From Polaromonas sp. (GTDB lineage: Bacteria > Pseudomonadota > Gammaproteobacteria > Burkholderiales > Burkholderiaceae_C): 64,000 nt of DNA. Location: positions 16,305-80,304 of the forward strand of contig NZ_JAUYEY010000052.1 in NCBI RefSeq assembly GCF_030689685.1, written 5' to 3'. The translations under genes and the position numbers were made by a program. Below are positions 3,114-27,264 of the stretch, in pieces (within the stretch, counting starts at the first letter, position 1; the number at the start of each line of letters is the position of its first letter). Under the pieces are notes generated by a model that saw only the letters and a program-made list of their open reading frames with translations, was not told the origin of the DNA and did no database searches.

Positions 3114-4085
3114 ATGTCCTCTGAATTGCATAAATTTATTTTCGACGGCCTGCCGGTGCGCGGCATGCTGGTGCGCCTGACCGACGCCTGGCAGGAAATC
3201 CTCAAGCGCCGCGAGGCCGGCGGCGGCTACCCGCCCGCAGTCCTGCAACTGCTGGGCGAAATGACAGCGGCCGGCGCGCTGATGCAGAGCAGTATCAGCT
3301 TCAATGGCGCGCTGGTGCTGCAGATCTTTGGCGACGGGCCGGTCAAGCTGGCCGTGGTCGAGGTGCAGCCCGACCTGAGCCTGCGCGCGACCGCAACGGT
3401 GACCGGCGAGGTACTGCCCGGCGACACCTTGAGCCGTCTCGTCAACGTCAACAACCAGGGGCGCTGTGCCATCACGCTGGACCCGAAAGACAAGCTGCCG
3501 GGCCGCCAGCCCTACCAGGGCGTGGTGCCGCTGTTCGGCGATCAGCACGAAAAGATCGAAAATCTGGCCGAGGTGCTGGAGCACTACATGCTGCAAAGCG
3601 AGCAGCTCGACACCAAACTGATCCTGGCCGCCGACGGCCAGGTGGCGGCGGGCCTGCTGATCCAGCGCCTGCCGGTCAAGGGCGAGGGCAACCTGGAAAG
3701 CCAGCGCGACCGCGACGCCGACGAGGACCAGATTGGCCGCAACGAGGACTACAAGCGCATTGCCATGCTGGCCGGCACACTCAAGCGCGAGGAGTTGCTG
3801 GCCCTGGACGCCGACACGCTGCTGCATCGCCTGTTCTGGGAAGAAAAAGTCACGCGCTTTGTGCCCAGCACGCCGGTCTTTGCCTGCAGTTGTTCGCAGG
3901 AGCGCGTCAGCAGCATGCTGCGCAGCCTGGGCACGGACGAGGTCGAGGGCATCATCGCCGAGCAGGGACGCATCGATGTGGGTTGCGAGTTCTGCGGCGC
4001 ACAGTACGGCTTTGACCCGGTCGATGCCGCGCAGATCTTCACCAACCCGGCAGGGCAGTTGCCACCGGCGCCGACGGTGCAGTGA
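3114..4085 (+). CDS. hslO: Hsp33 redox-regulated chaperone
   Basis: Holdase chaperone activated by oxidation in the cytoplasm. The 323-residue protein has the N-terminal substrate-binding domain (LHKFIFDGLPVRGMLVRL) and the C-terminal zinc redox switch: CSC within FACSCSQERV and CEFC within VGCEFCGAQYGF, i.e. the CxC...CxxC set of four cysteines. The frame is open far upstream, but that part is translated repeat D; the ATG at 3114 gives the family N-terminus. The stop TGA at 4083-4085 abuts the convergent stop of the next gene with no spacer. Confidence 0.95.
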   Translation: MSSELHKFIFDGLPVRGMLVRLTDAWQEILKRREAGGGYPPAVLQLLGEMTAAGALMQSSISFNGALVLQIFGDGPVKLAVVEVQPDLSLRATATVTGEVLPGDTLSRLVNVNNQGRCAITLDPKDKLPGRQPYQGVVPLFGDQHEKIENLAEVLEHYMLQSEQLDTKLILAADGQVAAGLLIQRLPVKGEGNLESQRDRDADEDQIGRNEDYKRIAMLAGTLKREELLALDADTLLHRLFWEEKVTRFVPSTPVFACSCSQERVSSMLRSLGTDEVEGIIAEQGRIDVGCEFCGAQYGFDPVDAAQIFTNPAGQLPPAPTVQ

Positions 4086-7624: not shown

Positions 7625-9333
<1,709 letters not shown>

Positions 9334-9407: not shown

Positions 9408-10667
9408 ATGACGAAGCAAGCAAACCATCAGGCCACAGTCGATGGCGGTGATCTGGCTGGCAAACACATTGTGCTGGGCCTGTCCGGAGGCATCGCCTGC
9501 TACAAGGCGGCCGAGTTGTGCCGCGCGTTGATCAAGGCCGAAGCCAGCGTGCAGGTGGTGATGACCCAAGCGGCCGAACAATTCATCACCGCTGTGACCC
9601 TGCAGGCGCTCAGCGGCCGGCCGGTGTTCACCAGCCAGTGGGACAGCCGCCCGGCCGCTGGCATCGACAACAGCATGGCGCACATCAACCTGAGCCGCGA
9701 AGCCGATGCCATCCTGATCGCACCCTGCAGCGCCGACTTCATGGCCAAGCTGCTGCATGGCCGCGCCGACGATCTGCTGAGCCTGATGTGCCTGGCGCGA
9801 CCGCTGGCCACGGTGCCGCTGCTGATTGCCCCGGCCATGAACCGCGAGATGTGGGCGCACCCGGCGACGCAGCGCAACATGGCGCAACTGTCGGCTGATG
9901 GTGCAACCATCCTGGGTGTGGGCTCGGGCTTTCAGGCCTGCGGTGAAACCGGCGACGGCCGCATGCTGGAGCCGCCCGAGCTGCTGGATGACATCATCGC
10001 TTTCTTCCAGCCCAAGCTGCTGGTTGGCCAGAAGCTGCTGGTGACGGCCGGGCCGACCTACGAAGCGCTGGACCCGGTACGCGGTATCACCAACCTGTCG
10101 AGCGGAAAGATGGGCTTTGCCATCGCCCGCGCTGCCCACGAGGCGGGTGCAGAGGTCACGCTGGTCGCTGGGCCGGTGAGCCTGCCAACACCGCGCGGTG
10201 TCACGCGCATCGACGTGCGTTCAGCACAAAACATGCTTGAAGCCGTTATGCAGCAGGCGCCAGCAGCTACTGTTTTCATAGCAACGGCGGCTGTGGCCGA
10301 CTGGCGCCCGGCCAGCAGCTCCGAGCGCAAGATCAAGAAAGACGGCTCGGGCCAGCCGCCGCAGCTGGCGTTTACCGAGAACACCGACATTCTGGCGACG
10401 GTGGCGCAATCGCCGCGTGCCCGGTCGGGCGAGTTGTTCTGCGTCGGTTTTGCCGCCGAAAGCCACGACCTGGAAGACAACGCGCAGGCCAAGCGCAAGC
10501 GCAAGGGCGTGCCGCTGCTGGTGGGCAATATCGGCCCAGCCACGTTTGGCCGTGACGACAATGCCCTGCTGCTGGTCGATGCCCAGGGCAGCCGCGAGCT
10601 GGCGCATGCTTCCAAGCTGTCGCTGGCCCGTCAATTGGTGGCGGATATTGCCGCCCGTTTGCCCTGA
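9408..10667 (+). CDS. coaBC: Bifunctional phosphopantothenoylcysteine decarboxylase / synthetase
   Basis: Performs two coenzyme A steps: joining cysteine to 4'-phosphopantothenate (CoaB, C-terminal) and decarboxylating the product (CoaC, N-terminal, FMN). 419 residues. CoaC features are GLSGGIACYKAAEL, the active-site histidine in MAHINLSREAD, and APAMNREMWAHPATQRN. CoaB features are LVTAGPTYEALDPVRGI, LSSGKMGFAIA and KIKKDG. The ATG at 9408 follows GCGGAG. A partial family C repeat sits in frame near 10262-10284 (APAATVFIATAAV), at a place where relatives vary. Confidence 0.96.
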   Translation: MTKQANHQATVDGGDLAGKHIVLGLSGGIACYKAAELCRALIKAEASVQVVMTQAAEQFITAVTLQALSGRPVFTSQWDSRPAAGIDNSMAHINLSREADAILIAPCSADFMAKLLHGRADDLLSLMCLARPLATVPLLIAPAMNREMWAHPATQRNMAQLSADGATILGVGSGFQACGETGDGRMLEPPELLDDIIAFFQPKLLVGQKLLVTAGPTYEALDPVRGITNLSSGKMGFAIARAAHEAGAEVTLVAGPVSLPTPRGVTRIDVRSAQNMLEAVMQQAPAATVFIATAAVADWRPASSSERKIKKDGSGQPPQLAFTENTDILATVAQSPRARSGELFCVGFAAESHDLEDNAQAKRKRKGVPLLVGNIGPATFGRDDNALLLVDAQGSRELAHASKLSLARQLVADIAARLP

Positions 10668-12845: not shown

Positions 12846-14030
12846 ATGGATGTCACTTTAGCCCTTCCCCTGCTCGGCGGTCTCACGCCGCAGCAATTCA
12901 TGCGCCGCCACTGGCAAAAAAAGCCGTTACTGGTGCGTCAGGCCATCCCCGGATTCAGGCCGTTGCTCGACCGCGCATCGCTTTTCCGACTGGCCGGACA
13001 GGCGCAGGTAGAGTCGCGTTTGGTGCAGCAGCAGACCAAAGGCTGGCGCATGAAACAGGGACCGTTCGGGCCGCGCGGCCTGCCAGCCCTGTCGGCACCC
13101 GCCTGGACGCTGTTGGTTCAGGGTGTGGACCTGCATGATGCGCGCGCACATGCATTGCTGCAAAACTTCCGTTTTATCCCCGATGCCCGGCTCGATGACT
13201 TGATGATCTCCTTTGCCACGCCAGGCGGGGGCGTGGGTCCGCACTTCGATAGCTACGACGTTTTTTTGCTGCAGGCCAGTGGTCGGCGCCGCTGGAAGAT
13301 CGGCAAGCAGAAAGACCTGAGCCTGCAGGAAGGGGCGCCTCTGAAAATCCTGCAGAACTTCGAACCGGAACAGGAGTTCGTGCTGGAGGCCGGTGACATG
13401 CTGTACCTGCCGCCGCGCTACGCGCACGATGGTCTGGCCGAACCCTGTGTCGGCGCAGATGGCAAGGCGCAGGACTGCATGACCTACTCCATTGGGTTTC
13501 GCGCGCCAGGCCGCAGCGAACTGGCGGGCGAACTTCTGCAACGGCTGGCTGATTTTGACGGCGATGCTCATACCGGCGCTGCCCCGCATCTGTACACGGA
13601 CCGCGCCCAGGCGGCAACCGCCACACCGGCGGCCTTGCCGTCCGGCCTGCTTGAATTTGCGCAGCAGGCTTTGCACCATGCACTGAAAGATCCGCTGGCG
13701 CTGGCCTGTGTGTTGGGCGAGTACCTGACCGAGCCCAAGGCTTCGGTGTGGTTTGACGAGCCGGTCGGCCCTTGGGACACGGGTCATCCAGGCGGGCTCA
13801 GCCTGGATCCGCGCAGCCGCATGATGTACGACACCCACCATGTGTTCCTCAACGGTGAGAGTTATCAGGCAGGGGGCGCAGATGCCGCGCTGATGCGCCG
13901 CCTCGCGGACCAGCGCAGTCTGTCGGCCGCCGACTTGCGCAAAGCCAGCGAGTCTGCGCTGGCCTTGCTGGCGGACTGGTATGAGGCTGGCTGGCTCAGG
14001 CGCCGGCCTGAGAGCGACCGTTGCATGTAA
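12846..14030 (+). CDS. JmjC-type cupin, ribosomal oxygenase family (YcfD/RoxA-like)
   Basis: Fe(II)/2-oxoglutarate-dependent hydroxylase; E. coli YcfD hydroxylates an arginine of ribosomal protein L16. 394 residues with the N-terminal LTPQQFMRRHWQKKPLLVRQ. The metal triad is His133-x-Asp135 in GPHFDSYDVFLLQ and His194 in LPPRYAHDG, and the 2-oxoglutarate-binding region is WKIGKQKD. The C-terminal ~150 residues match the dimerisation/winged-helix part of the family. Substrate is inferred from the family, not visible here. Divergent from the SlyD-like gene. Confidence 0.9.
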   Translation: MDVTLALPLLGGLTPQQFMRRHWQKKPLLVRQAIPGFRPLLDRASLFRLAGQAQVESRLVQQQTKGWRMKQGPFGPRGLPALSAPAWTLLVQGVDLHDARAHALLQNFRFIPDARLDDLMISFATPGGGVGPHFDSYDVFLLQASGRRRWKIGKQKDLSLQEGAPLKILQNFEPEQEFVLEAGDMLYLPPRYAHDGLAEPCVGADGKAQDCMTYSIGFRAPGRSELAGELLQRLADFDGDAHTGAAPHLYTDRAQAATATPAALPSGLLEFAQQALHHALKDPLALACVLGEYLTEPKASVWFDEPVGPWDTGHPGGLSLDPRSRMMYDTHHVFLNGESYQAGGADAALMRRLADQRSLSAADLRKASESALALLADWYEAGWLRRRPESDRCM

Positions 14031-14059
14031 AAATGTCAACAACAAACGGGGGCCAAGCC

Positions 14060-14563
14060 ATGGGCAGCGATCAATTTCCTGTGCCGCCTTCGCCGCTTTT
14101 ACAAGGGCGCTTCGAAGGCCGTTCCGAGTTCGCTGAATTGGTTCGTCATGCCTTTGTGGTCGCGGCCGAGCAGGGTTGGCGTGAAATCATTGTGTGCGAC
14201 GCTAATTTCGAAGACTGGCCACTCGGCGAGCGTGTTGTGGCGAAGGCGCTCAACGACTGGTCGGCATCGGGCCGCAAGTTGACCATGCTGGCCCAGAACT
14301 ACGATGAGGTCATCCGGCGGCATGCGCGTTTTGTCACCTGGCGGCGCACCTGGTCGCACATCGTTGACTGCCGTGGCCATGCGTCAGGCGAACTGCCCAG
14401 CGTTTTCTGGAGCCCCGGCTGGGCGTTTGAGCGGCTGGACCTGGCCCACAGCACCGGTGTTGCCGGCTCCGAAGCGGGCCGGCGGATTGCATTGAAGGAG
14501 CGCCTGGCCGAGAAACTTCTACGGAGTAGCCCAACTTTTGCGGCGACCACGCTGGGCATTTAA
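14060..14563 (+). CDS. Conserved protein of unknown function
   Basis: 167 residues (MGSDQFPVPPSPLLQGRFEG...). The body (ALNDWSASGRKLTMLAQNYD, RHARFVTWRRTWSHIVDCRG) resembles small betaproteobacterial proteins with a phospholipase D-like fold pattern, but no HKD motif is present, so catalysis is unlikely. I do not assign a function. ATG 14060 follows ACGGGGGCC; ATG 14033 and TTG 14021 are alternative starts without a good ribosome binding site. It follows the cupin gene by about 30 bp and is probably co-transcribed. The IS element begins 33 bp after its stop. Confidence 0.8.
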   Translation: MGSDQFPVPPSPLLQGRFEGRSEFAELVRHAFVVAAEQGWREIIVCDANFEDWPLGERVVAKALNDWSASGRKLTMLAQNYDEVIRRHARFVTWRRTWSHIVDCRGHASGELPSVFWSPGWAFERLDLAHSTGVAGSEAGRRIALKERLAEKLLRSSPTFAATTLGI

Positions 14564-14596: not shown

Positions 14597-16068
14597 TATT
14601 ACTGCGTCATAAATTTAATTTTCAACTTACCCACTTGCAATGAGGGCAGTGCCCCAGAGCGCTTGCGAGTGCGGCGCTCAAGTGCAGGCGCAGCGTCGTG
14701 ATCGAGTCCGCTACGTGACGCTGCGTGCGCTGGACTTCCCCGAGGGATGTAATCTTCGGGAACGGCAGGCACTTGGCGTTGGGCGAAGTTTTTTTTACTG
14801 CTGACAGCTGTGCCAGCTCTGAGTCGCTCGGCCATCAGGAACCCGTAGGCCGCGATGCTCAGCGTGGCGTGATGGTGAAACCCGCGCCAGCCCCTTCCCT
14901 CATAGTGGCCCAGCCCGAACTCTTGCTTCAAGTCTTGGTAGTCGCGCTCGATGCGCCAGCGCATCTTGGCAACGAACACCATTTGCTCCAGGGTGGCCCC
15001 ACTTGGCGCGGTGGTCAGGAAGTACTTTGTTGGCTCGGCCTCGCCATCGGGCCACTCGATCAGCAGCCACTCTTCGCCTCGCATCTGCGTGCCTTGATAG
15101 TCCCGATGCGCAGGACGAACCCGCACCCCGGCGAAACGCGAAGACAGCTCGCTATTGCTGCCCTCGCGCCAAGTGACGGTGCGCCAGGCTTGCGCTGGCA
15201 AGGCCATGGCCAGTGCCTTCACTGCCACCGGCTTATTGCCGGGCTCCCGGCGCAGCCGTGTAGGTTTTGCGCCGCGCCCAACCCAGGCTTTGGGCGGCAG
15301 CGGCGCAGTCCCCGGCGCCCACACCGTGGTGGCCGGGGCGGATGCCGACCGCGTAGAGTAGCCCCAACTCCGTGATGCCATCGCGAAAGGCGGTTTCATC
15401 GCCATAACCCGCGTCTGCCAGCACCACGCCCATGGGGACGCCCGCAGCGACTGCCTGGCGCATCTGGGCCTGGGCGATCTCGGGCTTGGTGGCGAACGCT
15501 TGTGTCTCGGGAATCCCGCCTGCCTTGCGCCGCACCGGATCAGCGGCCCAGTCTTTGGGAAGGTAGAGCTGGTAGGCTATTGGGATGCTGCCTTGCGCGC
15601 TTGCCAATGACAGGCTGACGGCCACCTGGCAATTGTCTTGCTTGCCCAGTTGACCGCAATACTGGCGGGCCACGCCCACAGAGTGTTTACCCTTCTTGGG
15701 AAAGCCCGTGTCGTCGATGATCCAGTAGCAGCCGCTATCGAGCCCCAGCGTCGGCATGACCCAATCGCGCACGCCGGCCAGCACGGCCCGGTCCGACCAG
15801 TCGGACTTGGCAACAAAATGATGCAGCGCTTGGTGCCGTGCGCTGGCGTGCAGGGGATCAATGCGCGCGGCCATGGGCTCTACGCTTTTGCGTGACAAGG
15901 GCAGCATCAGGCCAGTGCAATACCCACTGAGTCCCGCGTGTCGGTCAGCATGACCGAGTCCTTGGGACAAATGAGCAATGTACTGACTGAACTCTTTGGA
16001 GATGTCCATCATGCCTCCAGCTAGGATTTCTGATGGCAATAGTATACTGATTCTATGACACAGTAAGA
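14597..16068 (-). mobile_element. IS701-family insertion sequence with frameshifted transposase
   Basis: About 1472 bp. The left end (from 14597) reads TATTACTGCGTCATAAA; the right end read inward from 16068 is TCTTACTGTGTCATAGA, an imperfect terminal inverted repeat. CTAG flanks both sides (14593-14596 and 16069-16072), a 4-bp target duplication as expected for the family (YTAR targets). The right-hand CTAG is the outer CTAG of a family A repeat, so the IS jumped into that repeat's end. Confidence 0.85.
14599..16012 (-). pseudogene. IS701-family DDE transposase, single-base frameshift
   Basis: The N-terminal part starts at ATG 16012 (MMDISKEFSQYIAH, SD GGAGG). It carries the first DDE aspartate in WIIDDTGFPKKGKHSVGVAR and the second in VVLADAGYGDETAFR. 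It reads on to LLYAVGIRP near 15340, then leaves frame. The correct continuation (ATTVWAPGTAPLPPKAWVG ... MRWRIERDYQDLKQEFGLGH with the catalytic Glu region) is in the next frame and ends at 14599. Removing one base from the four-base G/C run at 15335-15338 restores a continuous ~470-residue transposase. It is probably inactive unless the extra base is a sequencing error. Confidence 0.85.
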
Positions 16069-16238
16069 CTAGAAGCCTGGGCGGCAGAAGGAACGTCGGC
16101 TGCAAAGCGGCCGCAGCGGTCCATTTTTCACCGGCTTTTTGCCCCATAGCTACGGCTATGAGGCTGCAAACCCGGCAAAAACTGTCCTCGCCGGGGCCGA
16201 TTTTCGCTCTCGACGCCCCAAGCCCGACAGGCTCCTAG
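16069..16238. repeat. MITE-like repeat family A, full copy (170 bp)
   Basis: Begins CTAGAAGCCTGGGCGGCAG and ends ACAGGCTCCTAG; CTAG at both outer ends. The interior (CTTTTTGCCCCATAGCTACG region) matches the copy at 44780-44948 in inverse orientation over nearly its whole length. The end near 16210-16238 is more diverged. There is no coding capacity. Together with the hairpin at 16277-16306 it accounts for the 334-bp gap between the IS and fadH. Confidence 0.75.
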
Positions 16239-18482
<2,244 letters not shown>

Positions 18483-18583
18483 AGATGCTACCCATTTAGC
18501 AGTTGCTCAAGCACGCACAAGCTCGGCAGTGTGCCCTCGCCGTGACAGCGGGCGACATCAGGTTCGCGAAGTACCCGAACCGG

Positions 18584-21500
18584 CTACCACCGAAATCTGA
18601 ACGGACGGTATTCATCGTTTCCAAGATAAGCATTCTTCAGACTCGTTACCTGCAATTCAAGGATGTCGAACGGTGCGCGCATCTTGTCACGCCAACGCAC
18701 CGCACGATGCCATTGCTTGTGAAAAACCTGAACCAGCTTATGGCGCGAAGCGGCGCGTAAACGCCCCTCCTTATCAAGCTCGATGGCGAAGCCTCTGCCC
18801 AGCATGCCCAGTACCACCCGATCACCGAATGGCGCTCGATACTCTTCGATCAGGTCGAAAACAAGGCTCCCCTGATCCCGCTCTGTACCGTGAATGATTC
18901 CGAAGTAAGGGTCCAGGCCGGCACGTATGACAGCTCGCCAGACTTCACCGTACAGCATGCCGTAGATATAGTTGACCGAGCTGTTAACGGCATCTGTCGC
19001 ATGGCGTGTGTGGCGCCCGGGAAACGACAACGCAGCAGGAATGAGGGCAGCAAACGAAGACCAATACTTTGCCGCAGCACGGCCTTCGTGCCCCATGCCA
19101 GAGGCGCGTGCGGCCAGGGTAGCTGGATCAAGGCCATCAAGCGTATCGGCGATGCCGCGAATATCGTCGGCGCATCCTGTCAGTTTTTTATACATCGCGT
19201 CATCGGTGCGTTTGCGATAGCGGGCGAAATACTTCAATACGGAAGCCTGGTTAGCAACTTTGGCGGCAAGCATGCTCAGCCCCACTTTAAGAATGTCCGG
19301 GTCGTTCCTGCGCAAGACCTGCAACCTCCTCAGATTCGAGCGAGTGCCCTGGACCGGTTGGGCAATCGCCGCAGGTATACCCACCAAGGGGTTAAAGACC
19401 AGCGGAATACCGTTGTCGCACAGACGCATCGTCAGGTCGGCAGAAAGGCCAATCCCCTTACCCTCAAGGTAGGCCATCGTCAGCTCGGAAATCGCCAGGC
19501 GAAAGATCTCGTTCTTGCGCCGTCGCACCACCAGGTCATCGCCATTGACCGTGACGAAACAACCGCTCGTCATCACGTGCAATCTCCCGTCGATGACCAG
19601 GACATCCGGGTCACTTGCCTGATCGGCGTTCTCGCCGTTTGAACCGGGCAATGATGCAAGGGCCAAGGGCGCGGCGTCTGGCTGGCCCGAAGTCTGCCCC
19701 GTCTGAGCTGAAGTGAACTCGACGACAACACGCGACGTACGCTCTATCGGGTAAGCACCCGTCAAGACAGCGACTTCTGCAGCGGTTCGGAATTGACGCG
19801 CAGCAGCATCAGCCATATCAGGCAGAAATTTTTCGCGCGACGCCCACGCTGTGGCAATGCTGGAATCAACTGCAAACCGCTCGCCAACCAGGACATCGAC
19901 AGCGGCATCCAGCTCCTGTAGCTGGGTCAGAATGCCTGGCGCGTTGTCGATCAGAAAATAATTTCGAAAACCTCGAACCCGCGAATTCATGCCCATGATG
20001 GCCTGGTATTGCCCCATCGACGTTGACTTGAGAGAGGCAATTTCTTCAACAATCTTGCTGACAGCCTGGATGGTCCCCGCCATCTTTTGTGGCGGTATGC
20101 AAACGTCCGTCAATCCAATCTCAAAGCCAAGAAACACAATGCCCTCTTCAACAGGGCAGTAGTGAGTCTTGGCCGGTTTGAGGGCCAGCCGCAGGACATC
20201 CTGGAGGAATTCAGTCATCATGCGCAGCGCAGCCTGCGCCTCTGCCTCGGAGTTGCAGAGCACGACATAGTCGTCGGCATACCGTACAAACGTTATCGCT
20301 GCTTGCTCAAACTCCTTGTCCAATTGGTCGAGATAAATATTGGCCAAGAGCGGCGAAATCGAATCGCCTTGAGAGATACCCAACTCGGAAGGAAGAATGT
20401 CCATGAAGTCAATGACATCTGCCAACAGCCATTGCCGGATCAATTGAATCAGGTCGCGATCACCAACCACGTCACCCACCAATCTCAGAAGGATGTCATG
20501 GTCAATGCTGTCGAAGCATTTACGGATGTCCGCCGTCACCGCCCACCGCTTTCCCGCACTGATTGCAGAGCGCGCCATTGCAACGGCGTGATGGGCACCA
20601 CGACCGGGCCGGTAAGCAAAGCTGAACGGGCTGAATCGCGCCTCAAACAGCGGCTCGATGAGCTGCAGGCAAGCGGCCTGCACCACGCGGTCACGAACGC
20701 AAGCGATTTTTATGACCCGAAAGTCGCCGTCAGGCTTGGGCAGGCGTGCGGTTCGCAAGGGGCGGCTGCGGTAGCGTCCTTGATCCAGCTCCAGCGCCAG
20801 TTGCTGGAGTTCGACATCCAGCGTAACCCCGAACTGCTCAATGGTGATCTGGTCACAACCCTGAGAGTGACGTTTGTGTGCCTTGACTCGAAACCAGCCG
20901 GCGTAGAGCGTTTCCTTCATGCATAGCTTGCGGTACAGGTCGGTATTTTTCGGAGCCTGTGACTCGTTAGCCGCGAGGGCAGACGAGAACTGTTTTACCG
21001 GCGTCAAACGCAGTTGCTTTAGCGCCTGCCGACGAAAGCCCTGAGCCAAAGAGTCATTGGTTTCACGGGGCCGCACAAGCGCTGTGACGGCTTTATGACT
21101 GGCGCCGGAGCGCACCCAGACTTGCCCGGGTTTCAAGTCCCGAATGCGCTTGCGCTCAGTTTCGTCAAGCCACGCCGTCTTGGTATCGTCCGGCAAGTCA
21201 CCGATGGGGCCGGCTACCCAGCAATCGGCGTCGGCTGCAAGCCAGCTTCGCGCAGCGGCAGGCAGCGGCTGCGCGGCGGAAAATGCGAACAGCCCGACCT
21301 GTTTCGCATCCACCTCACCAGTCGCCAGCGACAGGGGGCAGGCCGTCGGGAAACCATACAGAAGAATGGGCGAATGCCGCATCGCTTCGCCCTGTGGTTT
21401 GTCACTGTTAGCGGAAAGCAGCGCATCTATAAGCATCGCATCAACCATCCACGAGACGATTTGATGCTCCAGCCGCTCAAAATGAGAACCAGGCAACTCA

Positions 21501-22090
21501 ATCCAGACGGTTGCACCGTGCGTCAGCGCGTGGCTCAAGTCGCTGCAATTGTTGCCTTCTGACAGCGCCCAGACGGCCGGGAAACGCAAGGCCCACTCCA
21601 GTAATTCGACAAGGCGATCAATTTCTTCGGCCATGGTTTGATTGCGGCGTAGCAGGTGCGATGTCTCTGGGCGTCTAAGGCTGCGAACCAAAGCTGCCAG
21701 TCCAACACTGCCCTGGTCCGCCAGGCGATACGCCATCTCGACAACGGTGTCGATGGTCGCCCCCGAAACAGGTGCCACCACCAGGTTGACGGAACTTTCA
21801 AGAAAACCGCGCAAGGCGGGTTTCATACCCGTCGAACGCTTGAAGCGAAACAATGCCGTGGGCCGTCGCCGGTTGGCAAGGTCGCACCAAAGCATCGACC
21901 CCTTGTGCAGATTACCCTTGTTTTTTTCCATCAATAACGATGCGAGATTGCCTTGATAGTCCACTATGACCAGCGCCTGATCACGCTGCCTGGCGTGCAG
22001 AATGCGGCGCAATGCGAGGTCGGCCGCGTTCTGCACGCGGCCGAGTATCAGAAGAGGCCGTGGGCGCTCACGGTTGGAATTTTTTCTCAT
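18584..22090 (-). CDS. HerA/VirD4-like domain - reverse transcriptase - Cas1 fusion protein
   Basis: 1168 residues in three parts. (1) About 10-345: a HerA/VirD4-type ATPase pattern without its active site. The Walker A position reads LLILGRVQNAADL (no GxGKT), the strand after it VIVDYQGNLA, and the usual DE Walker B reads ILLYGFP. The tail matches late motifs of the fold (GLFAFSAAQPLP, LKPGQVWVRSG). (2) About 385-690: a group II intron-like reverse transcriptase with catalytic Asp521 (AVTADIRKCFDSID), QGDSISPLLANIYL and YADD at 604-607, then a maturase-like thumb to ~760. (3) About 833-1160: Cas1 with metal ligands Glu1002 (GHEGRAAAKYW), His1067 (GIIHG) and Glu1082 (FDLIEEYRAP). No Cas6 domain is seen. 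RT-Cas1 proteins in type III CRISPR loci acquire spacers, including from RNA; here no array, effector or cas2 adjoins. ATG 22090 has GGCGAG upstream and overlaps the preceding gene by 23 bp; ATG 22126 is the alternative. Confidence 0.92.
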   Translation of the reverse strand: MRKNSNRERPRPLLILGRVQNAADLALRRILHARQRDQALVIVDYQGNLASLLMEKNKGNLHKGSMLWCDLANRRRPTALFRFKRSTGMKPALRGFLESSVNLVVAPVSGATIDTVVEMAYRLADQGSVGLAALVRSLRRPETSHLLRRNQTMAEEIDRLVELLEWALRFPAVWALSEGNNCSDLSHALTHGATVWIELPGSHFERLEHQIVSWMVDAMLIDALLSANSDKPQGEAMRHSPILLYGFPTACPLSLATGEVDAKQVGLFAFSAAQPLPAAARSWLAADADCWVAGPIGDLPDDTKTAWLDETERKRIRDLKPGQVWVRSGASHKAVTALVRPRETNDSLAQGFRRQALKQLRLTPVKQFSSALAANESQAPKNTDLYRKLCMKETLYAGWFRVKAHKRHSQGCDQITIEQFGVTLDVELQQLALELDQGRYRSRPLRTARLPKPDGDFRVIKIACVRDRVVQAACLQLIEPLFEARFSPFSFAYRPGRGAHHAVAMARSAISAGKRWAVTADIRKCFDSIDHDILLRLVGDVVGDRDLIQLIRQWLLADVIDFMDILPSELGISQGDSISPLLANIYLDQLDKEFEQAAITFVRYADDYVVLCNSEAEAQAALRMMTEFLQDVLRLALKPAKTHYCPVEEGIVFLGFEIGLTDVCIPPQKMAGTIQAVSKIVEEIASLKSTSMGQYQAIMGMNSRVRGFRNYFLIDNAPGILTQLQELDAAVDVLVGERFAVDSSIATAWASREKFLPDMADAAARQFRTAAEVAVLTGAYPIERTSRVVVEFTSAQTGQTSGQPDAAPLALASLPGSNGENADQASDPDVLVIDGRLHVMTSGCFVTVNGDDLVVRRRKNEIFRLAISELTMAYLEGKGIGLSADLTMRLCDNGIPLVFNPLVGIPAAIAQPVQGTRSNLRRLQVLRRNDPDILKVGLSMLAAKVANQASVLKYFARYRKRTDDAMYKKLTGCADDIRGIADTLDGLDPATLAARASGMGHEGRAAAKYWSSFAALIPAALSFPGRHTRHATDAVNSSVNYIYGMLYGEVWRAVIRAGLDPYFGIIHGTERDQGSLVFDLIEEYRAPFGDRVVLGMLGRGFAIELDKEGRLRAASRHKLVQVFHKQWHRAVRWRDKMRAPFDILELQVTSLKNAYLGNDEYRPFRFRW

Positions 22091-22490
22091 GATTCTCGCC
22101 AACATCTGGCATCGTAGGCGTGGCATCCAGACCAGCAGGGCTTGCTACCACAGCGTTTGGCCTGCCGCGCATCGCCTCAAGGCGCTGGCGACTATACAAA
22201 TAGTAATCCGGCCAACTGAGAAACAACTCGATTTCCTGGAAGCCAAGCATGAGCCCGTCAGCCATTGCCTTGCACACAAGACGATGTTTTTTGGGGGCGA
22301 AATCAGGCACCCGCCAGTGGGTAGCCCCCCTTTTTTCTTCAAAATCCAGCGGTGAAAGCTGATCAATGATGTGCTGTAGGCTGGCGACTCGATTTTTGAG
22401 CGTATTGAGCAAGTCATGCGCCGCCCGTCGGTTAAGGACGAAGCCTTCTTCCAATTGAAATTGGACACCGGTCATAAAACAATGTGCCAT
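22068..22490 (-). CDS. Small protein coupled to the RT-Cas1 gene, unknown function
   Basis: 140 residues, mostly helical: CFMTGVQFQLEEGFVLNRRA followed by an amphipathic helix (AHDLLNTLKNRVASLQHIID) and a polar, disordered tail. An early Cys-x3-Gly and a basic segment (APKKHRLVCKAMADGL) suggest a nucleic-acid or protein partner, but I recognise no family. AAGGAG lies about 10 bases before the ATG at 22490. Its end overlaps the start of the RT-Cas1 gene by 23 bp, so the two are translationally coupled and probably act together. Confidence 0.75.
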   Translation of the reverse strand: MAHCFMTGVQFQLEEGFVLNRRAAHDLLNTLKNRVASLQHIIDQLSPLDFEEKRGATHWRVPDFAPKKHRLVCKAMADGLMLGFQEIELFLSWPDYYLYSRQRLEAMRGRPNAVVASPAGLDATPTMPDVGENHEKKFQP

Positions 22491-22507
22491 GGTGTTTGCT
22501 CCTTAAA

Positions 22508-22521
22508 AATTGCTAGCAATT
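22508..22521. promoter_or_regulatory. Perfect 14-bp palindrome in divergent promoter region
   Basis: AATTGCTAGCAATT is its own reverse complement. It lies 18 bp upstream of the small gene that leads the RT-Cas1 operon and 178 bp upstream of the divergent ATPase start. The whole intergenic region is 22491-22698. Its position and symmetry suggest an operator for a dimeric repressor controlling one or both units. The binding protein is unknown; the H-NS-like protein is not an obvious candidate. Confidence 0.5.
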
Positions 22522-22698
22522 AACTACTTGGAACTAAAAGAATTGCACCATCAAACCCTAGCGCTCCACAACGGCTGCGTTTCACAGATTTGGTGCTCTC
22601 ACATGGCCAAAAGGGTGCTGTCATGGTGCCGCCCACCACTGCAAAAACAGGTGGCAGCAATCACCGAATATCTGCACAATCAGAGCCGGGGGACAACC

Positions 22699-24816
22699 AT
22701 GGGTATAGAGAATCCATTCAACGTTGATGCGGCCTTGGTATCTGAGCATGAGCTTGCACAATTGACTCCGCACGGGGGCGCCGCCATACGGGCGTTCTGC
22801 GGGCTTGACGGTTCGGCAACGGATTGGGAGGAGCGCGGCGTTTGCGTGCTCAAAGCCCGAAAGGGCTTTGGCAAAACTCATCTGCTCGCGGCCCGCAGCC
22901 GGAACCACAGAAGCAGCAGCACTGCAACCCACACCATTTTTTATCCCCAAGGCGGACGCCAACGCATTTTGTTTGATGCTCTGAGCAGCCTGCACGTCGT
23001 CGTTCCACGGTGGCTGCAAGGACGGGAAGCTGCATCGGCCTGGATTTATATTTGGCAGTTATCTGTCTTGGGTCTTTTGGTCTGGATAACCGAATCACGT
23101 TCGGCCACGCTACGCGGGTACGCAGACTGGTTCGGCAGTCTTGAGTCGTTGGACCAAATTCAAAAGCTAAATAACTCCGGTACCGCAGCAGGTGGGCAAC
23201 CCAGCGTCATGCTGACATGGTTCATGGGTCGCATACTTGAACGCATGCCGGTCGATGACTACACGCTTGGGATGGACCAGTTAAAGCAAGGCCTCTACCA
23301 CGGCAACAGCGATTGGGCGATTGCGATCACCGCAAGCATTGCGAGCCGCGACAAGACCCGGATTGTGATGTATCTGGACGCACCTGATGAACTCGTTGAG
23401 CTCAACCCACCCAACCTGTGGAGAAACGTCCAGCAAGGCCTTCTTTTGGCGGTGTGGAAATTTTCCAAGAGTAGTATCTGGAGCCATGTGCTCAATATCT
23501 ATGCGTCGGTACGCAGCGAGGCCTTCGGCTCCGGCCAGGACCACCCTGACATAGCGCTTGCGATGGGACTTGTGATGCCGCTCGCCTACAGCCGTGACGA
23601 CCTGGAGGCCATGCTTAACGACAGGATTAAACAAGCCGACGCTTCACAATTGACGCTTCCGCTGCAAGAAGGGCAAAAGCCCGTATACGCGCTGTGTGGC
23701 TTCAGTGATGTGACACATGACAACCGGGACGCGCACGATGGTGGGCGCTACACCGAAGACGTGTTTGACTCCATCTTGCGGCACACCCGGTTCGTACCAC
23801 GGGAGGTGATCGGCATAGGCGGAGCCATTTACGCAATCCTTGGCGTGCGAAGTTTCGAAACCGTAAGAGACGCCGTCAACACCAAAGCCAGCAGCGACAT
23901 CGCCTACGCAATCACCCATTCATTTTTAGGGTGGATCGATGCACAGCACGGACGCTTCGCCGCGTCGCTGCCCAAAGAAGTCATAGACCGGAAAACAATG
24001 GGCGAACTGGCCGCAAAGTTCGGCCAGGACGGCCCCAGGATGATCAAATTTTTTGTCCAGCATGGTCTTGTCGGTATTGCAGAGCCTTTACCGCACAGAC
24101 ATCGCCATTACTATCTACAGCGCTTTGCATTTGACGAAGTGCATGGAAATGAAGACGCCAGCTCGGTTAACAAAGATTACTTCTTTCTGCACCCGGCCTT
24201 CAAACAGTGGATTTTGTCCTTGCCAGAACAGTTGACGCAATCGTTTGAGCGCCTTCAGATTGGCGTCATTGGCAACCTAAAACCTTATGAGGCCAAACCT
24301 CCGCATGTGCGGCTTGGCGTGGTGCGAGAGCAAATCACGCTCAAGCTACGAACAAGCCGAAGAATGTCGACCACCGAAAAAGGTGCCGATTCAGATCCGC
24401 TCAAGTTTCTTTATGTTGTGCTGTGGGCCTGCCGCGAGCTGAAGCAAACGCGCATCAACCTCAGCGAACTGCGGGAAGTATGGGCCAAACTTCGTGGGAT
24501 TGAACGAATCAAAGCGGCGCTGGATGTCTCCTTGCCGAGTCGAGTCGATTCGCTAGCCTTGAAGGTTCGTGATTGGGCAAAGAAAATCAACCAGGACAAA
24601 GATATTCGCAAGCTACAGCAGATATTACGTGGTACTCGCAGCACACCCACTGGCAATAAAAAACAAAGGCCCGGCACACCGATACATCCGTTTATTTCAG
24701 TCACCGCACGCAGCAACATGGGCGCACAAGTTGAAGTGTGGCTTCCTCATCTTCCGCTCAATGAACTGGATTGGGATGAAGCCATGTACTCACTGGCTGG
24801 CTTCGGAAACAAATGA
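22699..24816 (+). CDS. P-loop ATPase (ORC/CDC6- or STAND-like) of the RT-Cas1 island
   Basis: 705 residues. Begins MGIENPFNVDAALVSEHELA, the NPF...E opening seen in ORC/CDC6-like bacterial ATPases. Walker A is KARKGFGKT at about 52-60 and Walker B is RIVMYLDAPDE at about 221-231. A long helical and winged-helix-like C-terminal half follows (MGELAAKFGQDGPRMIKFFV, LHPAFKQWILSLPEQL) with a basic region near 615-640. No membrane segment or nuclease motif is visible. The ATG at 22699 has an excellent ribosome binding site (GGGGGAC, 6 bases upstream); the frame is open to 22510 but that part lacks features. It is divergent from the RT-Cas1 operon. A role as a sensor or loader for the RT-Cas1 protein is inference from position only. 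Confidence 0.8.
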   Translation: MGIENPFNVDAALVSEHELAQLTPHGGAAIRAFCGLDGSATDWEERGVCVLKARKGFGKTHLLAARSRNHRSSSTATHTIFYPQGGRQRILFDALSSLHVVVPRWLQGREAASAWIYIWQLSVLGLLVWITESRSATLRGYADWFGSLESLDQIQKLNNSGTAAGGQPSVMLTWFMGRILERMPVDDYTLGMDQLKQGLYHGNSDWAIAITASIASRDKTRIVMYLDAPDELVELNPPNLWRNVQQGLLLAVWKFSKSSIWSHVLNIYASVRSEAFGSGQDHPDIALAMGLVMPLAYSRDDLEAMLNDRIKQADASQLTLPLQEGQKPVYALCGFSDVTHDNRDAHDGGRYTEDVFDSILRHTRFVPREVIGIGGAIYAILGVRSFETVRDAVNTKASSDIAYAITHSFLGWIDAQHGRFAASLPKEVIDRKTMGELAAKFGQDGPRMIKFFVQHGLVGIAEPLPHRHRHYYLQRFAFDEVHGNEDASSVNKDYFFLHPAFKQWILSLPEQLTQSFERLQIGVIGNLKPYEAKPPHVRLGVVREQITLKLRTSRRMSTTEKGADSDPLKFLYVVLWACRELKQTRINLSELREVWAKLRGIERIKAALDVSLPSRVDSLALKVRDWAKKINQDKDIRKLQQILRGTRSTPTGNKKQRPGTPIHPFISVTARSNMGAQVEVWLPHLPLNELDWDEAMYSLAGFGNK

Positions 24817-24924
24817 TAAAAAAGAATGTGGATTGAACATAAAGTGTTTGCCCTCCAACCTCTAGAAAATAGAAGAATTTAATATTCAAGAAAAATTTTT
24901 AGCACTTATTTCGCACTTATCTAC

Positions 24925-24953
24925 TTGCATACAAATTAGATTAGCAATACACT
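24925..24953 (+). promoter_or_regulatory. Candidate sigma-70 promoter for the H-NS-like gene
   Basis: TTGCAT (24925-24930) and TACACT (24948-24953) are separated by 17 bp in an AT-rich 186-bp gap, about 50 bp before the start codon. A direct repeat GCACTTAT occurs just upstream (24902 and 24913). Confidence 0.4.
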
Positions 24954-25002
24954 TTCGTACATCTTATTTTCTGAAAAATATTACATCGGAAATTATTAAT
25001 TT

Positions 25003-25359
25003 ATGCCTACCACCATTGAGCTGCAACAACAAATCAATCAAGCTGAAGCCAAGGTCAATGAGTTACGCGAAAAACTAACTCAGCAGCAAAATGTCGAACG
25101 TGTACAAGCTATTGCATCAGCGAAAGAGCTTATTAAAACGTACCAACTTTCTGCAACCGATTTGGGATTTGCTGCAAAAAAACCCACGCCCAGCGTGAAA
25201 CGCGCAAGGATTGACAAGGGCGTGGCCATAGCGCCGAAATATGCAGACCCTTCTACGGGAAAAACCTGGTCCGGTCGCGGCAAAGCCCCAGCATGGCTAA
25301 TAACCTATTTATCTGCTGGTCACAGCAAACAAGATTATTTAATTTCAAATAAGCAATAA
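25003..25359 (+). CDS. H-NS family nucleoid-associated protein
   Basis: 118 residues with an N-terminal coiled-coil oligomerisation region (ELQQQINQAEAKVNELREKL) and the C-terminal H-NS DNA-binding motif KYADPSTGKTWSGRGKAPAWL at about residues 79-99. H-NS proteins silence AT-rich, horizontally acquired DNA. Codon use and the flanking DNA are clearly more AT-rich than the core genome, supporting a foreign origin. It may silence the island that carries it. It lies between the ATPase and vapD, same strand, with its own probable promoter. Confidence 0.88.
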   Translation: MPTTIELQQQINQAEAKVNELREKLTQQQNVERVQAIASAKELIKTYQLSATDLGFAAKKPTPSVKRARIDKGVAIAPKYADPSTGKTWSGRGKAPAWLITYLSAGHSKQDYLISNKQ

Positions 25360-25442
25360 CGCCTACTTACTGCTGGCATTACATTGAGTGATGTGTATTA
25401 TATAATCTACATATATACATAAACAGCCTGAAAGAAAAAATC

Positions 25443-25904
25443 ATGGCTCGCTGCCTTATTGTTTTTGACCTTGACACTGAATTGCTGAAAGTCAACTACC
25501 ACAACAATAGTTGGAATAATGGTTACGGTGATATCCGGAAAGTTCTCAACAAACACCGCTTCAACAATATTCAGGGAACCGTGTACTTGAGCGAACGTGG
25601 TGTTCGCCAAGCTCACGGAACGATTGCACTTCAAGAAATTGCCATCAGGTTTTCTTGGTTCGATAAGTGCGTGTCGAATGTCCAGTTCTATGATTTAGCT
25701 GATGACTTCAATGCGCAGTTCATCATTGATGGAATCACACAGGCAAGATTGGCTTTTGATCGCCGGATTACTGAATTGCGGCAGCAATTGATCAGTGTGG
25801 GTTTGCCATTGGACAAGGTGGATGAGATCATCGGCAAACAAACCTTCTCCTTGGAAAATTCCACCCAAGGCAATCCGCATCCCGCCATTGGTGGGCAGTC
25901 GTAA
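25443..25904 (+). CDS. vapD: VapD-family endoribonuclease (Cas2-like fold)
   Basis: 153 residues. The N-terminal ~95 are a close VapD match: CLIVFDLDTELLKVNYHNNS, DIRKVLNKHRF, QGTVYLSERG, ALQEIAIRFSWFDKCVSNVQ. The Asp in the first strand (Asp9) is at the catalytic position. VapD is a small RNase whose ferredoxin-like fold is homologous to Cas2. This one has a C-terminal extension of ~60 residues (helical, AFDRRITELRQQLISVGLPL) absent from most VapDs. It is preceded by an AT-rich promoter with TATAAT at 25401-25406 and a weak ribosome binding site. It lies 3.4 kb from the start of the RT-Cas1 gene. A Cas2-like partnership with that protein is possible but unproven; a toxin or persistence role is the default. 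Confidence 0.87.
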   Translation: MARCLIVFDLDTELLKVNYHNNSWNNGYGDIRKVLNKHRFNNIQGTVYLSERGVRQAHGTIALQEIAIRFSWFDKCVSNVQFYDLADDFNAQFIIDGITQARLAFDRRITELRQQLISVGLPLDKVDEIIGKQTFSLENSTQGNPHPAIGGQS

Positions 25905-26420
25905 GTTTACATTGCATTTACGATCAAGATTATGTAAACCGTTGATTTTATTGGTGATTTTGTTTTGTCAAAATTCAACTATTGCCTGAAACTCTTTATA
26001 TTTCAAGGCACTGCTGAATGATTGGAATGGTGTCGAAAACCCCGGATTCGACAGCCTTCTGCCTCCCGCATTCGACACGCTTGCAAGTCGTTGAAAACAA
26101 AGCGGTTTTATACCCGGCAAAACCGTCATTCAGGCCAGTTGTCGAAAATCGACGTACGCATTGCCCGCCAGCCAACGCCGGTGACCTGAGTTCAGGGTGA
26201 TCTCATGCCACTTTGTCGATTGCGCACAGGGTTTTGAGCCTGGAAATGGTGTTTTGACGGGCTGTGGCCGCAATCCGTCCGCCAAAAGCGTGACCCGACT
26301 GAGAACAAAGGCCCTTCAAGGGCCTTTGTTCTTGCATCACCAAGAATATTTCACTAGAAAGCATTGCGTTTCTTATAAAGAATATTCACAATCTATTAAA
26401 ACTTTGACTAATCAAACGCT
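25905..26420. other. 516-bp gene-free, hairpin-rich region after vapD
   Basis: No convincing ORF. Inverted repeats in order: GTTTACAT 25905-25912 / ATGTAAAC 25932-25939; TGCCTGAAA 25983-25991 / TTTCAAGGCA 26001-26010; TGTCGAA 26031-26037 / TTCGACA 26047-26053; CGGTTTT 26103-26109 / AAAACCG 26119-26125; GTCGA-AAA-TCGAC 26141-26153; CCTGA-GT-TCAGG 26185-26196; and the terminator at 26303-26331. The heptamer TGTCGAA or its complement occurs four times (26031, 26047, 26071, 26140). It could be a structured RNA, a set of binding sites, or decayed DNA. It is not a CRISPR array. Confidence 0.5.
26303..26331 (+). terminator. Perfect 14-bp-arm hairpin, probable terminator
   Basis: GAACAAAGGCCCTT pairs perfectly with AAGGGCCTTTGTTC around a single central base (effective loop TTCAA), followed by TTGC rather than a long T tract. 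It lies between the hairpin region and the toxin-antitoxin genes. It may end a transcript from vapD or from a non-coding RNA in 25905-26302. Confidence 0.6.
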
Positions 26421-26894
26421 ATGAACACCCCCACCATAGACACTTCGATGGCCAGACGCTTGGTCGAGGCCTCTGCGATCCGCAGCGCATCCATCATTGG
26501 CCAGCCTGGCGGCTGGTCCGTGGTCTTGAAGATGGGCTCGCAAGAGCGGCCTCTTGGGGCGCAGCGCAGTGACAAACCGCGCACCTGGCGCAGCCTGGAC
26601 CGCGCCGTGGCCTACCTCAAGGACGAGCTGCACATTGCCCGCTTTGACCTTCTGGATGCCACCAACCACTCCAAGGCGACGCTTTTAGTGGGCAAGTCTC
26701 GCGTAGATGCCTCCGAGCGGCTGCGTCAGGCACATGAGGCGGCCGGACACGACAAGTGGTTTCGTGGGCAAGTGGAACTAGCGATCAAGGACGCAGACGC
26801 ACCGGATGTGCAGTGGGTGTCGGCGGCTGACGCCAAAGCCAGCTGGAAACAAAAACGGGCTGAGTTGGTCAGGCGCGCAGGGAGCGCCGCTTGA
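26421..26894 (+). CDS. Antitoxin of ParE-type module (plasmid-stability determinant family)
   Basis: 157 residues. An N-terminal domain (MNTPTIDTSMARRLVEASAI ... LDRAVAYLKDELHIARFDLL) is probably unrelated to the toxin-binding part. The C-terminal ~60 residues (HEAAGHDKWFRGQVELAIKD, VQWVSAADAKASWKQKRAEL) match the stability-determinant/PaaA-like antitoxins that pair with ParE toxins. The stop overlaps the toxin start (TTGA). The exact antitoxin class is inferred from the short C-terminal match and the partner. Confidence 0.75.
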   Translation: MNTPTIDTSMARRLVEASAIRSASIIGQPGGWSVVLKMGSQERPLGAQRSDKPRTWRSLDRAVAYLKDELHIARFDLLDATNHSKATLLVGKSRVDASERLRQAHEAAGHDKWFRGQVELAIKDADAPDVQWVSAADAKASWKQKRAELVRRAGSAA

Positions 26895-27166
26895 CGCTGG
26901 TGTGGTTGAAGCGAGCCATCAACGACCGCGACGCCCAGCTCGACTACATCGCGCAGGACAATCCGCTAGCCGCTATCACCCAGGGTGACCGGATTGCTGA
27001 ACAGGTTGACACCCTTCTGCAACACCCCCAAATGGGACGCCCAGGGCGCAAGCAAGGCACCCGTGAGCTGGTCATCAGCCGCACGCCGTTCATTGTGGTG
27101 TACCGCCTCAAAAGTAAACGCATTGAGCTTCTGCGTCTGCTGCATGGCGCACAACAGTGGCCGTGA
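26891..27166 (+). CDS. ParE/RelE-superfamily toxin
   Basis: 91 residues. Typical ParE/RelE order: VWLKRAINDRDAQLDYIAQD, AEQVDTLLQHPQMGRPGRKQ, GTRELVISRTPFIVVYRLK, then IELLRLLHGAQQWP at the end. ParE toxins poison gyrase; RelE toxins cleave mRNA. The sequence resembles ParE more. Start is TTG at 26891, overlapping the antitoxin stop by three bases, giving tight coupling. A core-genome gene and shared terminator follow, so this pair probably marks the right edge of the accessory island. Confidence 0.88.
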   Translation: MTLVWLKRAINDRDAQLDYIAQDNPLAAITQGDRIAEQVDTLLQHPQMGRPGRKQGTRELVISRTPFIVVYRLKSKRIELLRLLHGAQQWP

Positions 27167-27239
27167 GCGACTATGCATGAGGGCGTTTTCAGCGCTTTCT
27201 TAACTCGCAGCTTAATATTTTGCCCGCAAGCCAGTGCTT

Positions 27240-27264
27240 AGGGCCCGAACGGGCCCTTATTTTT
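27240..27264. terminator. Intrinsic terminator between toxin and FAD oxidoreductase
   Basis: AGGGCCCG (27240-27247) and CGGGCCCT (27250-27257) form a perfect 8-bp stem followed by TATTTTT on the plus strand. It overlaps the TAA stop of the convergent oxidoreductase gene. Confidence 0.7.

Follow-up and report, generated by a model that had tools for sequence, protein, structure and literature searches.

A reverse transcriptase-Cas1 fusion family with a predicted HerA/VirD4-type N-terminal fold, accompanied by a small partner gene and a conserved non-coding element but by no CRISPR array

We describe a 1168-aa protein of Polaromonas sp. in which a predicted HerA/VirD4-type fold, a reverse transcriptase (RT) and a Cas1 domain are joined in one frame (18584..22090, minus strand, of the 64,000-nucleotide stretch analysed here, referred to as the window), and whose occurrence without a CRISPR array likely marks a system that has so far not been described. 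The three-part organization had been proposed in the initial annotation and is borne out by our results, the catalytic residues being conserved. A sequence database search yielded 83 near-full-length matches, which rules out a chance fusion, and the family that they form keeps the domain order. Purifying selection acts on the N-terminal, RT and Cas1 parts alike, and the copy of genome G095 has a frame break within the RT. The fusion is patchily distributed, being present in 2 of 87 genomes of the genus and in 3 of 399 of the family; an order-wide search added a single weak match, in G769 (18.2 bits, 31% identity over 124 residues), which was left out of these counts. A phage or plasmid gene was rejected as an explanation, as neither the 143 phage records with matches nor the best 5000 plasmid records include one that covers 80% of the query. 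Similarly, no family member appeared among the best 80 matches of a profile scan of IMG/VR, nor in two single-protein scans.

The N-terminal domain (residues 1-365; 20996..22090, minus strand) was modelled by AlphaFold with a pLDDT of 88.5 and a pTM of 0.90, and PDB matches place the predicted fold, over residues 6-360, with HerA, VirD4-TrwB and DndH-type ATPases. The domain had been called ATPase-like: the predicted fold supports this, but the nucleotide-binding motif does not, as Walker A was found in 0 of 59 aligned members and in 0 of 105 family proteins or pieces. Because it is missing from all 59 aligned members, the domain is more likely to be a scaffold than a motor. The further idea of a conjugation- or packaging-type scaffold agrees with the predicted fold, which is its one basis, and no conjugative gene was present among the annotated neighbours. 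We also considered that the domain might exist on its own. The 12 matches recovered are all 49-69% identical and are probably pieces of family members, two of them also carrying the RT; this search is blind to relatives that share no short words with the query.

The RT is of group II type with a thumb-like extension (residues 380-745; 19856..20953, minus strand), and the Cas1 domain (residues 829-1168; 18584..19606, minus strand) has E1002, H1067 and E1082 as catalytic residues. The RT active-site residues and the Cas1 metal ligands are conserved in 59 of 59 aligned members. Among curated models, group II scored best for the RT (287 bits, cut-off 300). Its scores of 51.5 against retron_St85 (cut-off 235) and 53.3 against Drt2 (cut-off 390) are far below these cut-offs, and we therefore reject its placement in a retron clade. 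A group II intron was rejected too, since Rfam searches of the window and of seven loci, at gathering score, revealed no intron RNA around the RT gene nor any other match. The phylogeny that the initial annotation had proposed as a check gave a result in two parts: the family is monophyletic in the RT tree (support 99/98) and in the Cas1 tree (99/100), outside the 14 RT-Cas1-type references sampled, while in the Cas1 tree, with the same 14 references, it lies weakly (88/72) beside one RT-Cas1 group. Six of these references are annotated with an adjoining cas2, and eight were taken as CRISPR-type from their architecture.

The fusion gene lies in an island (18483..27257) between two convergent core genes, at a site that is empty or filled differently in the eight relatives of the genus examined. 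A small gene encoding a 140-aa protein (22068..22490, minus strand) overlaps the start of the fusion with its end; 8 of 8 loci have such a gene, even the distant L028, and C4 and C73 are invariant in all of them. Its database search gave 21 matches, the window gene included, eight of which are on contigs equal in size to an RT-Cas1 contig, and a PDB profile search returned nothing useful. This partner gene had gone unnoticed in the initial annotation. On the other strand follow a divergent P-loop ATPase, weakly Sll1717-like below the cut-off and with an uncertain exact start (22510..24816, plus strand), an H-NS-like protein (25003..25359, plus strand), which also adjoins the L004 and L288 loci, and a VapD-like, Cas2-related protein (25443..25904, plus strand) located 3 kb from the fusion and found in 1 of 10 loci, that of the window. 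Copies of the ATPase about 69-70% identical occur in L192 and L289, and a 299-aa protein takes its place elsewhere. When four neighbours were scanned with PADLOC, VapD alone was named, as Cas2-like; a family search assigned neither the 299-aa protein nor most other neighbours.

As a positive control for the detection of CRISPR-like repeats we used the type I-C array carried by this genome, which was detected in L005. None were found in 8 of 8 family loci, nor in L288 and L289, ruling out a local array in these 10 loci. No cas2 lies beside the fusion either, PF09827 matches being on other contigs or absent. That the locus has neither array nor cas2 had not been remarked upon in the initial annotation.

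A second part that had escaped notice is a conserved non-coding element (25905..26275, plus strand). It contains repeated inverted TGTCGAA/TTCGACA motifs, has a conserved fold for which support is partial, and is a candidate RNA or DNA site. Among the family loci, all six with sufficient upstream sequence carry it, always oriented against the operon, and it is considered non-coding because close copies differ by frame-breaking indels. In a scan of 65 genomes, with stricter filters under which weak matches were lost, strong matches were restricted to family genomes (6/7) and one relative (1/58), which carries a decayed copy of the locus. No element was detected in G383 (12.4 bits), a genome in which the family contig is truncated. 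A search of 268 sequences recovered family loci only. The model built without L028, whose protein is only 41% identical, retrieved that element at E 4e-11, and a second model built without G456 and G991 retrieved them at 3.9e-17 and 1.6e-57. That it is a common repeat was rejected, since neither plasmids nor phages yielded a match, and neither did viral contigs when searched with one exact pattern. Against Rfam there was no match at gathering score, and the two obtained at a permissive threshold were both far under theirs.

Evidence on the nature of the element is mixed. In three held-out sequences, one of which (L288) is 81% identical to the window element and hence a weak test, helix 1 kept 6/6, 5/6 and 4/6 pairs, helix 3 kept 13/13, 12/13 and 9/12, and helix 5 kept 9/10, 7/10 and 9/10; the first model's inner helices were poorly kept. 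Most of the conserved pairs fall within the repeated TGTCGAA motif, which is compatible with a protein-binding site too. Among eight sequences, eight pairs had changed on both sides, the same number as when the structure was slid by -1. The covariation term of the consensus was -0.59, compared with an unfavourable +4.4 on the reverse strand, and the single-sequence z-score was lower on the reverse strand (-3.16 versus -2.35). We consider that the element is probably transcribed, though it may be a DNA site instead of an RNA.

The reading that we prefer, and to which we give an even chance, is a system independent of CRISPR arrays, composed of the fusion, the small partner and the element, that likely copies RNA into DNA for cutting or insertion by Cas1 and is perhaps used in defence. 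The element, located behind the divergent gene or genes, would be transcribed and its RNA bound by the fusion, as are the ncRNAs of retrons and DRT systems. With its conserved active-site residues, the RT would then copy this RNA, or RNAs recruited by it. The resulting cDNA would be processed or integrated, with no need of Cas2, by the Cas1 domain, whose metal ligands are likewise conserved. The 140-aa partner and the HerA-like domain, which has no Walker A, could act as a platform and an oligomerising scaffold. The interchangeable genes that lie between the operon and the element, encoding the ATPase or the 299-aa protein, VapD, H-NS and secreted proteins, may have effector or regulatory roles in what would be a defence-type island. 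The activity suggested in the initial annotation, copying RNA or DNA and inserting the product, is what the conserved active sites lead us to infer.

Three other readings were weighed against this one. That the fusion acts in trans, supplying arrays at other genomic sites with spacers derived from RNA, is quite unlikely in our judgement. Type III arrays are indeed served by known RT-Cas1 proteins, and roughly half of the RT-cas loci are described as having no effector genes yet often an array (PMC5513706). Furthermore, four of the seven family genomes (G000, G035, G095 and G458) have an ordinary Cas1/Cas2/Cas5 set elsewhere, the Cas1 being of type I-C (NCBIfam), and G000 an array on C2; in these four the fusion may act in trans on their arrays. 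But the draft genomes G383, G456 and G457, in which genes may have been missed, keep the fusion with no Cas2, Cas5 or Cas10 above cut-off; G456 and G457 have no second Cas1, yet carry both fusion and element, and G383 has a weak stand-alone Cas1 (41.6 bits). Moreover, known partners are mostly type III, whereas Cas10 exceeds the cut-off in only one of the seven. We hold it highly improbable that the fusion is a self-mobile retroelement with Cas1 as integrase, a 'retro-casposon'. The patchy occurrence at a variable intergenic spot, the two copies in G000 and a 127-bp inverted pair in L026 (5.4 kb and 1.1 kb beyond the unit) would fit it. Nevertheless, a core gene too lies within that pair, which is absent from the nine other family loci, no terminal repeats or target duplications are common to the loci, whose borders could be placed only within tens of bases, and the G000 copies are only 74% identical to each other. 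Apart from the operon, the element and certain accessory genes, the loci are dissimilar, and strong element matches pair one to one with fusion copies (two in G000; one each in G035, G095, G456, G457 and G458).

That the element is a DNA target for integration of cDNA or DNA, making the locus an integron-like platform for gene capture, we regard as unlikely. Its repeated inverted motifs recall multi-site recombination regions, and the genes between operon and element vary while all pointing in the direction of the element (with genes picked by eye, 9 of 9 in five single-contig loci and 14 of 14 once L288 and L289 are included). Besides, a cytochrome c-like gene of L026 is truncated at the element edge, and that of L028 bears a perfect direct repeat of 38 bp. 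This L028 repeat spans a gene end, however, and may derive from a duplicated gene; it is the exception among six loci, the other five having no significant edge repeat. The first gene of the interval is one of two recurring kinds, or ParB-like in L028, rather than random cargo, and some compensatory changes in element pairs favour RNA. A bolder proposal, in which the fusion would convert cellular or phage RNAs into DNA and write them directionally into the edge of its own element as co-directional cassettes, an integron- or CRISPR-like memory that does without both CRISPR repeats and Cas2, we judge very improbable.

Some bacteria use RT-Cas1 enzymes to write RNA into DNA, and the papers searched in open-access PubMed Central tie these enzymes to CRISPR arrays. 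An array-less family with both active sites strongly selected, a Walker-less domain of translocase fold, a dedicated partner and an element of its own would show a second career for this chemistry. It makes RT-Cas1 action without CRISPR testable, and would be a new source of RNA-writing enzymes.

Among known systems, casposons encode a family B polymerase beside Cas1. The fusion resembles casposases (Cas1-solo transposases) in having Cas1 without a CRISPR array, 6opm being among the matches of its Cas1 part, but an RT replaces the polymerase and no terminal inverted repeats common to the loci were found. Retrons and ncRNA-bearing DRT systems combine an RT with a structured RNA element and exchangeable accessory genes nearby. 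By analogy, the RT of this family is accompanied by such genes and by a conserved element whose structure is RNA-like; unlike in those systems, it scores far below the curated retron and DRT cut-offs, Cas1 is fused to it and the element has no Rfam match at gathering score. With HerA, VirD4-TrwB and DndH-type ATPases it shares the fold predicted over residues 6-360, but not Walker A, missing in 59 of 59, and in the fusion the fold is joined to RT-Cas1. A VirD4 gene adjoining a group II RT is reported in a paper on RTs and differs from the fusion. The CRISPR-RT architectures listed in the open-access literature searched are stand-alone, -Cas1, Cas6-RT-Cas1 and -CAPP (PMC10415136); the present one is absent from these kinds, in line with the initial annotation, which knew of no RT-Cas1 with an ATPase-like N-terminal domain. 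With the RT-Cas1 and Cas6-RT-Cas1 proteins of type III and some VI-A CRISPR systems, the fusion has in common an RT N-terminal to Cas1, conserved active sites and a group II-type RT. It differs in having a HerA/VirD4-like domain where those have nothing or Cas6, in forming a clade separate from the 14 references sampled in both trees, and in its loci, which are without array, cas2 and effector genes and have a small protein and a non-coding element of their own.

The fusion gene (18584-22090, minus strand) had been read in the initial annotation as a HerA/VirD4-like, reverse transcriptase (RT) and Cas1 protein, and Pfam and NCBIfam profiles recovered both enzyme domains, Cas1 at 6.6e-54 and an RT of the group II type at 3.6e-39; on the latter TIGR04416 scored 287 bits, slightly missing its cut-off of 300. 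Residues 1-365 matched neither profile collection, and the fold of this N-terminal domain is a prediction. Among 5.8 billion proteins the fusion found 96 matches, 83 of which cover at least 96% of it at 34-78% identity, including a second copy in the window's own genome (74% identical), so that homologues keeping the whole architecture do exist; 10 are shorter pieces and three (P0094-P0096) cover only 22%. The RT motifs YADD and QG..SP and the Cas1 E/H/E ligands, all singled out initially, proved invariant across the family alignment. All three parts are under strong selection, with dN/dS of ~0.16, 0.18 and 0.09 against the related locus L026. One copy (L191 9169-12604, genome G095) is frame-broken inside the RT and conserved otherwise.

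The family forms a single clade (99/98) in an RT tree alongside 28 non-CRISPR RTs and 14 references of RT-Cas1 type, six of these annotated beside cas2 and eight called CRISPR-type from architecture, and again (99/100) in a Cas1 tree with 25 other Cas1 sequences. The proposed comparison with known RT-Cas1 clades gave both domains clades of their own, and in the Cas1 tree a place, weakly supported (88/72), beside one RT-Cas1 group, that of Bacteroidota, Chlorobiota and Arcobacter; descent from a CRISPR RT-Cas1 is plausible. The family is rare: it occurs in 2/87 genomes of the genus and 3/399 of the taxonomic family, and no further clear member was found among 399 genomes of the order (window's genome counted each time). 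Named relatives carrying the fusion are MAGs of Polaromonas, Rhodoferax, a beta proteobacterium and an unclassified bacterium.

A small gene (22068-22490) overlaps the fusion start. It holds the same position in L004, L026, L027, L030, L191 and L192 (35-52% identity) and lies at 9610-9996 in the distant L028 (27.5% identity, E 4e-8). C4, G8 and C73 are invariant in all eight proteins and H69 in seven. A database search returned 21 matches, its own sequence included, none with a name except hypothetical protein; eight sit on contigs equal in size to an RT-Cas1 contig.

Repeat scanning revealed no CRISPR-like array in the window, L004, L026, L027, L028, L030, L191 or L192, nor in L288 and L289, two further loci. 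As a positive control, the same scan did detect the regular array at L005 10388-11637, which lies on a different contig of the window's genome together with a type I-C Cas1. Cas2 and Cas5 are found in the same four of seven family genomes, on contigs other than the fusion's, and Cas10 exceeds its cut-off in one. The drafts G383, G456 and G457, which can miss genes, have no above-cut-off match to any of the three, G456 showing a sub-threshold palm match; G456 and G457 have no Cas1 besides the fusion, and G383 has a separate one (41.6 bits). At 3 kb from the fusion lies a VapD-like gene of a Cas2-related kind (25443-25904, + strand; NCBIfam VapD 1.7e-13, below cut-off; PADLOC Cas2 3.5e-7), not found in nine other loci, whose product could conceivably substitute for Cas2.

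At the DNA level the window resembles L026 across the fusion and small gene (18579-22512) and then again only at a non-coding element, where window 25917-26258 and L026 14171-14512 share 72% identity over 345 columns. The element was then also recognised in L004, L030 and L191. Its length, counted from the ATGTAAA box through the final motif, is 327 bp in three loci, ~328 in L030 and 297 in L191, with slightly different end placement in the latter two. An HMM built from the five loci and run on 268 sequences (the window plus 267 loci, among them the 12 of the RT-Cas1-type references; 2.8 Mb in total) exceeded its inclusion threshold in family loci only, finding L028, outside the model, at 4e-11. 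Among family loci whose upstream sequence extends for 1 kb or more and is not cut early by a contig end, all six have the element (window, L004, L026, L030, L191, L028), in each case upstream of the operon and opposite to it in strand; left out of this count were L027, with 0.4 kb of upstream sequence, and L192, whose contig stops 2.9 kb upstream and gave no match. A covariance model of the six elements matched strongly in 6/7 family genomes and 1/58 others, the next-best match scoring 20.4 bits; five of these genomes had fed the model, and G456 (65 bits) and G991 (197 bits) had not. The G456 element sits on a contig other than the operon's, following an ATPase gene that is cut by the contig end; such an arrangement would result if, as we infer, the two contigs are joined. 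In G991 the element follows a 299-aa gene with a broken frame and an H-NS gene, with neither fusion nor small gene within the 20 kb examined, which on this gene content makes it a decayed locus.

Several features adjoin the element. In L028 a 38-bp perfect direct repeat (7883-7920 and 8570-8607), one copy at the element edge, flanks a lipoprotein-like gene; gene duplication may explain it, since each copy holds an apparent gene end. In L026 a gene for a cytochrome c-like protein that has a signal peptide (13988-14191; weak Pfam match, E 0.019) is truncated where the element starts. Just behind the window's element stands a near-perfect hairpin (26302-26332), terminator-like in shape and without a clear T run.

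The element could act as an RNA or purely as a DNA site. Its five-sequence consensus structure (+ strand) pairs 87% of cells, with covariation of 0.393 against 0.218 when shuffled (0/500) and at most 0.153 when slid, scored on the sequences from which it was derived. Three held-out sequences kept 41/55 pairs (L288, whose element is 81% identical to that of the window), 37/55 (L289) and 29/52 (L028), where slid versions kept no more than 25, 30 and 21, respectively; helices 1, 3 and 5 were kept and the inner helices mostly lost. On eight sequences these three helices are 88.6% paired, with covariation of 0.220 (0.121 shuffled, at most 0.142 slid) and eight two-sided pair changes, none of them in helix 5; shuffling gives 3.1 such changes and the -1 slide likewise eight. 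The repeated motif TGTCGAA/TTCGACA accounts for much of the conservation. Overall, an RNA is moderately favoured over a pure DNA site. A conserved protein encoded by the element is excluded, as indels not divisible by three separate close copies.

The locus lies in an 8.8-kb island (18483-27257) between two convergent genes. In four genus relatives (G461, G481, G460, G015) the matches to these genes are separated by 45-84 bp, and in G017, G479, G466 and G025 they enclose other sequence of 0.6-1.3 kb, so the island occupies a variable spot; the comparison concerns these eight relatives and is not a tally of all 61. Outside the island, at a distance of one gene, lies a DDE_5 transposase in two overlapping frames (14599-16147, minus strand). 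The L026 locus and a core gene are enclosed by a 127-bp inverted pair (3274-3400 and 15619-15745; 98% complementary, itself imperfectly palindromic), probably an unrelated small repeat since it is absent from nine other family loci examined.

Divergent to the operon stands either a P-loop ATPase gene (window; L192 70%, L289 69% identical) or one for a 299-aa protein (L004; L026 81%, L030 45%, and L288 47%, frame-broken); L028 has a ParB-like gene there and L191 no gene. Genes between operon and element, picked by eye with opposite-strand overlapping ORFs omitted (for example L026 13748-14260 and L028 9650-9877), all point in the element's direction: 9/9 (window 3, L004 1, L026 2, L030 1, L028 2), or 14/14 with L288 (3) and L289 (2). 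The window's H-NS-like gene (25003-25359) has counterparts of 68-77% identity in L004 (15143-15499) and L288 (7869-8222); in these three loci such genes stand on either side of the element. Immediately behind the window's element, a ParE toxin gene and an upstream 157-aa gene (26421-27166, + strand) are probably a toxin-antitoxin pair. Immediately downstream of the fusion, L027 (4357-5103) and L030 (9615-10283) carry secreted HELAHAE/HELGHAE metallopeptidase-like genes, 36% identical.

We propose that the element would be transcribed, its RNA serving as template or recruiter, and that the Cas1 part would integrate without Cas2, the HerA-like domain acting as a scaffold; the system's role may be defence. 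The open-access literature searched held neither an RT-Cas1 with a HerA/VirD4-like domain nor one with its own non-coding element, and HerA does not occur in the main text of PMC12669027; an earlier description may exist in subscription papers or preprints. Among known systems, RT-Cas1/Cas2 of Marinomonas tails RNA with DNA and integrates it into arrays (PMC11014452), and Silas et al. did not anticipate that RT-using modules would spread as retroelements (PMC5513706).
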